Source: Synechococcus sp. UW140
GTDB lineage: Bacteria; Cyanobacteriota; Cyanobacteriia; PCC-6307; Cyanobiaceae
Assembly: GCA_945875915.1 (NCBI GenBank)
Contig: CAMCMT010000009.1
Coordinates: 1-64,000, forward strand
Length of the DNA stretch: 64,000 nucleotides
Direction of reading: 5' to 3'
Shown: one piece after another, positions 60,118 through 62,368 of the stretch
Position numbering within the stretch: the stretch's first letter is position 1
Layout: each line of letters opens with the position of its first letter
Position numbers and translations under genes: made by a program
The notes under the pieces: generated by a model
What the model saw: only the letters and a program-made list of their open reading frames with translations
Told to the model about the DNA's origin: nothing
The model's database searches: none

Positions 60118-60606
60118 ATGAGTCCGACCCCAACCCCGCCCTCGGGCCCGCCCCAGGTCCTGCCCATCGGCGCCGAATGGTGCCTGGTGAGCCCAGCAGC
60201 AGGAGTCCAGAAACCCAATCCCACTTGCATCCAGCTGGAGCTGGCCTCCACCCCCCAACAGCAGCAATGGGGGCTGATGGGGCGTCCCCCCCTGGCGCCC
60301 CTGCGCGGCATGTGGTTTCCATTTGAGCCGGCCAGGGCGGTGAAGTTCTGGATGCACCGCACACCCGCGCCCCTGGACATGGTGTTTCTGCACCAAGGCC
60401 AGGTGATCGCCATCGAAGCAAACGCCACCCCCTGCATGCGGCTGCCCTGTCCGAGCTACGGCCCCGAAGCCCCTGCCGATGGGGTGGTGGAGCTGGCCGC
60501 TGGCCAGGCGGGTGCCCTCGGCATCAGCGTGGGCACCCGAGCGGCAATCCAGGCCAAGGGAAACGGGCTGCCCCAGGGACAACCAGAAGCAGTGCTGGGC
60601 CACTGA
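60118..60606 (+). CDS. DUF192-family protein
   Basis: A 162-aa protein with the DUF192 pattern: CIQLELASTPQQQQWGLMGR, GMWFPFEPARAVKFWMHRT, APLDMVFLHQGQVIAIEANA, and VVELAAGQAGALGISVGT. The family adopts a small beta-barrel; function unknown. An odd feature is a Cys-Pro-Cys-like arrangement (CMRLPCPSYGP). It follows the regulator gene by 39 bp on the same strand. Confidence 0.88.
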   Translation: MSPTPTPPSGPPQVLPIGAEWCLVSPAAGVQKPNPTCIQLELASTPQQQQWGLMGRPPLAPLRGMWFPFEPARAVKFWMHRTPAPLDMVFLHQGQVIAIEANATPCMRLPCPSYGPEAPADGVVELAAGQAGALGISVGTRAAIQAKGNGLPQGQPEAVLGH

Positions 60607-60958
60607 CCCGGGGCCGAACCAGCCCTGGGGTCCGATCCCAGCGGCAGGCGGAGCCGGCCCAACGGATAGCTGGTTGTTACTCAGCCATGGCCAAGTCTAT
60701 ACTTTGCCGGCAAAAGAAAGGCCCCCTTCTCAAGCCCTACCCCTGGGCAAACCCGTCACCACCGAACCCGGACATCACCGAACCGGCATTTATTAGCTAT
60801 TGCATAATTAGCAAAATCAATCCAAATGAGGCGCCAATCCCTTGATCTTATCCAAACCAGCCAACTTGCGGTCAAACCAACGGCCCCAAGGGAGCCCCAG
60901 GGGCCGCCCGGCCAGGGATCGGCACGGGATAGAGTAAAATTATCCCCCAGCGGGGATA
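60607..60958. other. Intergenic region before the HEPN-like gene
   Basis: 352 bp with no convincing gene; a 50-codon frame from the ATG near 60687 is unlike protein. A/T-rich stretch around 60785-60850 with a possible -10 element (CATAAT). GGCCCC and GGGGCC arms near 60885-60905 could form a hairpin. A perfect inverted repeat closes the region. Confidence 0.5.
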
Positions 60959-60960
60959 AT
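60939..60960 (+). promoter_or_regulatory. 9-bp perfect inverted repeat at the start of the HEPN-like gene
   Basis: ATTATCCCC (60939-60947) and GGGGATAAT (60952-60960) around the loop CAGC. It includes the first two bases of the ATG at 60959. It could be an operator or a hairpin that hides a start codon. Confidence 0.65.
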
Positions 60961-62368
60961 GGAGGCTTCCGGCGGATATGTTAATCTCGTAAAAACATGC
61001 TTACAGACCCCTACGATTTCAACTATGTTTCAGTCGCAAACAATCCTCGACGAACTTCTCACCCGTCGGCACAGAAGCTTTCTTTCTCAGCAGATTATTT
61101 TCTCCTATCAAATCCTGATCGATATTCTCTATAAGGTGTGGGGAAGCAATACGGAGGATTACGGCAGGGCCATCCAGATTGCTACGGGCAGACGCGGCGA
61201 CCTAGGGCGCTCAGCCCAATTATTTGAGGGCATCTTTATCGATGAACCGATCGAGATTGAGAAGCTCGAAGAATCGCTTAAATCAGTTACTATTATAGAG
61301 CGTATTCCTGGTGATCAAAAGCGGCCAACCCCGAATTTTGGCCGCTCCAATTCTCTGATTTCCAGCATCAATTTCTTCGCCGAGAAAAAGGATGAGCAAT
61401 TCATTCTCGATCGAATTGGCATTTCCAAGCAGAAATTACTCGGCATTAATCGCTGCATGTGGGAAATCAGGGCTTGCGCATTCTTCCTGCGAACAGCAAG
61501 AAATGACGATGAACATCTAGATATTCAAGATTTTTCCATGGCCACAGCCATTGCCGCTACTGGTTGTGCCGTAAGAATTTCGGACTGCATGCAGACCGTC
61601 GCATGGTCTCTACAAGGCTATGCGCCCAGCTTCAACGCCATGCTTGCCATTCCCAACGAGGACTGCTCCCAACCCCTTAATGAAATCATGAACCAGCTGG
61701 TCAACCCTGAGGCTGGCTCTATTGACAGGGGCGCAACCAAATCAGGCGGCGATCAAGATACCTCGATTGCATCATTAAATTCACTGATGACAGGCCAGCA
61801 AGGCGGCTCTTCTGAAATTGTACCCGTATTACTCGAATTACTCCGGGGCATGAATGAAAGCAAACGACATCATTTCACAGTGAGCCAATCCCTCGAACGG
61901 ATTGAGGGCCAGGGAGCCCGGATCGAAAATTGCTTCATCTCCCAAGCCACCAGCCCGACCAGCCTCGCGAGCGGACCACTCCTAGCCACAAGTTCAGGAG
62001 TGGGAGCCACCACGATCCAGGACATCAAAACCATTCCCGACCAATTAAGCAAGCGGGACGCCGAGGCTGCCTTGCTTGGACTAAGGAGCTATATCCTCTT
62101 CAAAATGAGAATTAACTACCCAGAATTCGAACCCTACCATTGCATTACCCAGCGCACCGCCATCCTCCAGGCCCTCCACGCCAGGTCCAGAACAATCGAA
62201 GAATATATAGCCGTTCCCGTGATCAAGAGAATTATATCGATGAACGATAATGGCCGAGAATTAGTCGACCAGCAGTTGGAAGATTGGGGTGATCACATCG
62301 CCAAGATCCTAACGTGCATTGACTACGCCAAAATCAACGACGATCCCGATCAGCACGACATCGCCTAG
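60959..62368 (+). CDS. Unrecognised protein with HEPN-like RNxxxH motif
   Basis: A 469-aa soluble protein I do not recognise. The start is either ATG 60959 or, more likely, ATG 61025 (MFQSQTILDELL, 447 aa). Residues about 160-225 form a helical region with RNDDEH (R-x4-H), the arrangement of catalytic residues in HEPN ribonucleases, preceded by MWEIRACAFFLRTA and followed by a long helix. The centre (about 240-345) is Ser/Gly-rich and probably flexible; the C-terminal third is helical. Composition is clearly lower in G+C than in neighbours, a sign of transfer. No partner antitoxin or nuclease is adjacent. Assignment to HEPN is a guess from one motif. Confidence 0.6.
   Translation: MEASGGYVNLVKTCLQTPTISTMFQSQTILDELLTRRHRSFLSQQIIFSYQILIDILYKVWGSNTEDYGRAIQIATGRRGDLGRSAQLFEGIFIDEPIEIEKLEESLKSVTIIERIPGDQKRPTPNFGRSNSLISSINFFAEKKDEQFILDRIGISKQKLLGINRCMWEIRACAFFLRTARNDDEHLDIQDFSMATAIAATGCAVRISDCMQTVAWSLQGYAPSFNAMLAIPNEDCSQPLNEIMNQLVNPEAGSIDRGATKSGGDQDTSIASLNSLMTGQQGGSSEIVPVLLELLRGMNESKRHHFTVSQSLERIEGQGARIENCFISQATSPTSLASGPLLATSSGVGATTIQDIKTIPDQLSKRDAEAALLGLRSYILFKMRINYPEFEPYHCITQRTAILQALHARSRTIEEYIAVPVIKRIISMNDNGRELVDQQLEDWGDHIAKILTCIDYAKINDDPDQHDIA

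Follow-up and report, generated by a model that had tools for sequence, protein, structure and literature searches.

A solitary picocyanobacterial gene with an R-x4-H motif and its relatives in DISARM loci

The window analyzed here is a stretch of 64,000 nucleotides from Synechococcus sp. UW140 (GenBank assembly GCA_945875915.1, contig CAMCMT010000009.1, positions 1 to 64,000). A HEPN-like gene stands near its right end, and the features of this locus are listed below.

60798..60817 (+): conserved upstream block TATTGCATAATTAGCAAAAT, a possible promoter or regulatory site, near-identical in 5 of 6 orthologs
60939..60947 (+): inverted repeat, left arm, 9 bp, core TATCYCC-N4-GGGGAYA
60952..60960 (+): inverted repeat, right arm, 9 bp, same core
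60959..61024 (+): 22-codon extension of the first-called ORF, probably non-coding; protein not conserved, with a TGA inside it in ortholog G001
61025..62368 (+): HEPN-like gene, 447 aa; start and length conserved in 6 of 6 orthologs, dN/dS 0.06-0.11
61025..61660 (+): N-terminal helical domain, residues 1-212, candidate HEPN domain (low-confidence model)
61463..61465 (+): Glu147, invariant in 20 of 20 alignment rows
61499..61516 (+): R159-N-D-D-E-H164, R-x4-H motif; R and H kept in 20 of 20 rows and four subfamilies
62048..62332 (+): conserved C-terminal domain, residues about 342-436, common to all full-length members

The initial annotation described a gene with RNDDEH that is solitary and lower in G+C than its neighbors. 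All of this was found to be correct: the ORF at 60959-62368 (+) encodes 469 aa and has RNDDEH in frame at 61499-61516. The gene has a G+C content of 49.7% and a GC3 of 0.57, compared to 0.71-0.80 for six neighbors, and has intergenic gaps of 418 nt on its upstream side and 321 nt on its downstream side. The gene is real, and its start is 61025 rather than 60959, because protein conservation begins at the ATG at 61025 in all six orthologs and the 22 codons upstream contain a TGA in G001.

A perfect 9-bp inverted repeat, ATTATCCCC-CAGC-GGGGATAAT, is indeed present at 60939-60960. It had been thought to overlap the beginning of the gene, which it does not: the arms lie 65-86 nt upstream of the conserved ATG. 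Since 61025 is the conserved start, the repeat belongs to the upstream DNA or the 5' UTR, and we read it as putative regulatory DNA. Nine perfect repeats of this kind (arm 9, loop 3-8) occur in the 64-kb window, compared to 0-3 in each of 10 shuffles, and such a repeat arose in 20 of 2000 shuffles of the local 401 bp. The core is recognizable in five of the six orthologs, imperfect in some and absent in L012; apart from this core and the block at 60798..60817, the region upstream of the gene is poorly conserved among the orthologs. The 2.6-Mb genome contains three exact copies of the palindrome TATCCCC-N4-GGGGATA and one more copy with a single mismatch; the same pattern read backwards, used as a control, was found nowhere in that genome. 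The other two exact copies are intergenic (G000:C2:72874-72891 and G000:C32:6278-6295; loci L116 and L117), and the one-mismatch copy lies within an ORF. One exact copy is near what we take to be an FG-GAP/DUF4347-like gene and the other is between genes that are presumably pilin-like and ABC-permease-like. The copies possibly mark a small regulon.

Six orthologs of 447-448 aa were available: the window gene and those on five freshwater picocyanobacterial MAG contigs (L008-L012), which are 79-94% identical to the window protein. Gene order is the same in all six species, except in L009, whose contig ends without showing the pirin-like gene. We take this order to be a response-regulator-like gene, a small conserved gene (60118-60606), the window gene, a methyltransferase-like gene and the pirin-like gene. 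The gene stands alone in each of the six species, and no partner ORF is conserved in their flanks, where intergenic matches are scattered across several frames. The dN/dS values against the window copy are 0.06-0.11, which, together with the one shared site, indicates that the gene is resident and under selection. Its site is fixed and its inheritance is vertical. All six orthologs have a GC3 of 0.51-0.62, compared to 0.71-0.80 in the six window neighbors, and the gene was perhaps acquired anciently.

Searches of the window protein against Pfam, NCBIfam, PADLOC, PHROGs and PDB sequences gave no significant match, and PDB profile searches (queries A4 and A5) returned chance rows only. Among 60 related genomes, the gene was found in 6 of 6 from the genus, with a weak match in 1 of 54 others. 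A profile of the six orthologs matched 16 of 400 genomes of the same bacterial family, and a mixed profile matched 24 of the 400 (a second match in G211 was left out). The phylum-wide profile search matched 5 of 386 genomes, and only the window's own genome and G184 were convincing (the weak matches in G046, G703 and G590 were left out). About 20 distant relatives, some of them fragments, were thus collected from the same bacterial family, plus one from a viral-collection contig (IMGVR_UViG_3300031787_000096). No relative was found on viral contigs with queries A3 and A1, on plasmids by tblastn with three family members, or in phages with one family member as query. Within what was searched, and the viral-collection contig apart, this previously unnamed protein family is confined to one cyanobacterial family. 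Four subfamilies were distinguished: a, the window genus; b, G027 and seven other intact members; c, G184, G106, G211 and the viral-collection contig; and d, G217 and G287. Representatives of different subfamilies share 14-23% identity in their N-domains and 14-28% in their C-domains.

The relatives were aligned in 20 rows, leaving out the fragments G332 (81 aa), G171, G265, G240 and G366. The arginine and histidine of the motif, whose conservation among homologs had been named as a check on the HEPN assignment, are kept in all 20 rows although the subfamilies are only 14-23% identical. Residue 160, directly after the arginine, is N, D or H in every row (N in subfamilies a and d, H in b and D in c). 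Also invariant are L31 and, in the C-terminal domain, L350, L353, F368, Q417, I425 and L429, and conservation of that domain equals that of the N-domain. The G171 fragment keeps R-x4-H and the decayed G366 fragment lacks it. By its sequence, the family carries the HEPN ribonuclease signature of an invariant E, R-x4-H, and N, D or H after the R.

Structure prediction gave no confident fold, and profile comparison did not link the family to a known HEPN family. AlphaFold2 gave a pLDDT of 36 for the full-length protein and 46 for the N-domain (pTM 0.45). The N-domain model has helices at 14-39, 43-54, 135-162 and 172-195, all at low confidence. R159-H164 is modeled at the end of helix 135-162, which a loop connects to helix 172-195, with a variable insert before; this agreement with the HEPN layout proves little at a pLDDT of 46. 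The fold search returned FAT-domain, invertase-inhibitor and designed bundles, which are generic four-helix bundles, with Z up to 6.9, and scores of this size may merely reflect the common arrangement of helical bundles. No HEPN-titled chain is among the 50 fold-match entries listed, which excludes nothing. With hhalign, the N-domain profile (Neff 3.2) was matched as well by shuffles in 35 of 100 cases against cyanobacterial DUF4145 and in 53 of 100 against PF05168, and at least one shuffle in each DUF4145 control set scored above 130. As a positive control, the DUF4145 and PF05168 profiles find each other (P 90.9). The best local match, which places R159-H164 on the GN-AAH of DUF4145, was rejected since block shuffles equaled it in 35 of 100. 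Subsets of the family scored higher, with shuffles as good in 1 of 100 (c with DUF4145), 4 of 100 (c with PF05168) and 5 of 100 (b with PF05168). These subsets were not used; the c-subset alignment lies off the motif.

The neighborhoods of the homologs, which the initial annotation had suggested checking, are rich in defense genes, above all those of DISARM, and this placement goes beyond what the window sequence alone could show. In subfamily b, the gene is tail-to-tail with drmC of drmABC, and the ends overlap in some loci. All eight intact b-type genes lie beside drmC, and the three b-type genes that lie apart from drm genes (G171, G265 and G240) are truncated pieces. At E<=1e-60, DrmA was detected in 42 of the 400 family genomes, and 44 of 50 DrmA rows were examined (G284:C62, G308, G314:C52, G026 and two G090 pieces were left out). 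A partner convergent with drmC is present at all nine visible loci of one DrmA clade and at none of the 27 visible loci outside it. The nine partner-bearing loci and G136 form this clade with an SH-aLRT of 100. Outside it are 34 loci without the partner, 27 of which have enough sequence to show one; the contig ends before the partner position in L181, L203, L207, L208, L209, L212 and L213 outside the clade and in G136 inside it. Fisher's test of partner by DrmA clade gives 1e-8 for loci that are not independent. Likewise, DrmA was present in 13 of the 18 genomes outside the genus that match the family and in 27 of the 376 that lack a match (Fisher 1e-10, a value that overstates independence because the genomes are related). 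A DrmABC locus without the partner, L188 (G076:C75), is sister to the partner-bearing clade and would be a good outgroup for timing the gain.

The b-type islands also hold SoFic, a HEC-05/GmrSD-type gene, PtuA and a DrmMI piece. A gene close to the DISARM locus of G027 (L013, 2353-3657) is one that we take to be reverse-transcriptase-like, of the group II intron type. The d-type gene of G287 is inside a DISARM locus with DrmD, DrmMI and DrmA and adjoins Cas4-like and AAA/WYL genes, and the d-type gene of G217 has MzaB about 6 kb away. In G184, a lone drmC was found about 2.4 kb from the c-type gene. No drm genes were found near the c-type genes of G106 and G211 in the stretches seen, or on the viral-collection contig by reading its gene list. 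A set of small genes (about 228, 170-200 and 220-250 aa) recurs with c- and d-type members (L038, L074 and L076) and is possibly an unnamed defense cassette; L076 shows two of the three with a simple gene caller, and its gene of the 220-250 aa class is Cas4-like according to PADLOC. Genes that are presumably Rad52-like and DUF2493-like lie near the members in both the viral-collection contig and G217 (L082 and L075), which suggests that these two loci share a mobile island.

The window copy itself has no defense gene, antitoxin or conserved partner beside it. The DISARM of its own genome is on another contig (G000:C23), belongs to a different DrmA clade and has no family member beside it. In the genus, DrmA was detected in 2 of 6 genomes (E<=1e-60), compared to 6 of 6 for the window-type gene. 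Therefore, the window copy is no DISARM component now. The proposal that it is an unrecognized defense or abortive-infection gene is thus supported by its relatives in defense loci but not by its own fixed site, which lacks a defense neighbor. Taken as a whole, the initial reading stands on motif conservation and homolog context and falls on the repeat at the start of the gene.

HEPN ribonucleases (Anantharaman et al. 2013, PMC3710099) resemble this family in R-x4-H with a polar N, D or H directly after the R, a conserved upstream acidic residue, a helical makeup, a variable insert before the motif helix, and a location among defense genes. The family differs in that its profile shows no detectable similarity to members of PF05168 or DUF4145, and its invariant E147 is in the motif helix rather than helix 2 in the low-confidence model. 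A HEPN-type motif is also shared with HEPN-MNT (HepT/MntA) modules, but the window gene has no nucleotidyltransferase or other conserved partner and encodes 447 aa, compared to about 140 aa; the five PF05168 copies in its genome are separate and elsewhere. As for DISARM (DrmA, DrmB, DrmC, DrmD and DrmMI), one subfamily regularly adjoins drmC in one DrmA clade and another member is within a DrmD/DrmMI/DrmA locus. Unlike DISARM components, the family is not listed in PADLOC and is convergent to drmABC rather than along its direction, and drm genes adjoin its b-type members but not the window copy. Searches of open-licence PMC papers, including PMC12458937, PMC10696648 and PMC9142583, turned up no mention of a HEPN-type gene beside drmC.

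The window gene probably encodes a defense-type RNA cutter, because the HEPN signature is kept and the relatives are often in anti-virus clusters; a defense function of the window copy itself is what we infer. On balance, we think it probable that the gene belongs to a new HEPN-like family linked to DISARM, as an orphan member passed on vertically, and that it has a putative RNase site. The mostly helical protein of 447 aa would comprise an N-terminal HEPN-like domain (E...R-x4-H), a variable middle and the conserved C-terminal domain. R-x4-H may form a metal-independent RNase active site, and the C-terminal domain may sense or dock, in the DISARM branch perhaps onto DrmAB/DrmC. Infection would release the RNase, which would then cut RNA. 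The window copy would be a chromosomally fixed orphan that departed from the DISARM setting and is probably silenced by its own C-terminal domain; the conserved palindrome probably marks the promoter of this gene. A more specific account is possible, and we offer it tentatively: a picocyanobacterial DISARM clade may carry a dedicated HEPN-type RNase effector tail-to-tail with drmC, with a DNA-sensing helicase complex triggering RNA cleavage, and the window gene may be its domesticated, chromosomally fixed descendant in a freshwater genus.

Several other explanations were weighed. R-x4-H could be structural or ligand-binding in a non-nuclease accessory or scaffold, such as a DrmAB adaptor or a transcription-linked factor, with the window copy as a housekeeping paralog. 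The lack of a HEPN profile match or fold is consistent with this, as are vertical inheritance under strong purifying selection in the genus and a C-terminal domain as conserved as the N-domain. In addition, the DISARM nuclease DrmC is reported to be dispensable (PMC9142583), so not every DISARM neighbor need be an effector. However, E, R and H are among very few invariant residues and have HEPN-like spacing with N, D or H after the R; we consider a scaffold rather unlikely. The gene could also encode a toxin that a small neighbor keeps in check, in a toxin-antitoxin or abortive-infection pair, since HEPN toxins are commonly paired (PMC3710099) and the upstream palindrome could be an operator. 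This is improbable given that neither flank holds a conserved partner ORF and the gene is alone in 6 of 6 species. Lastly, the low G+C could mark a recent horizontal arrival or a decaying orphan, a foreign gene without function here. The GC3 difference from the neighbors and the absence of such a partner from the genome's own DISARM fit this explanation, but the gene is intact at one site in 6 of 6 species and its low dN/dS contradicts decay. An old acquisition is possible, yet the gene is not decaying, and we give this explanation very little credence.

DISARM is described as a DNA-targeting system with an unclear killing step (PMC9142583). If the DISARM-linked reading is true, a clade-specific neighbor with a ribonuclease-like site might allow DISARM to degrade RNA or to act by abortive infection, and the window gene would illustrate the persistence of an effector without its sensor.

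Elsewhere in the window, a single open frame of 8308 aa at 20559-45485 (-) fills the AT-rich part. It has repeats that we take to be of the ELW.TDGT type and is presumably a giant surface protein.
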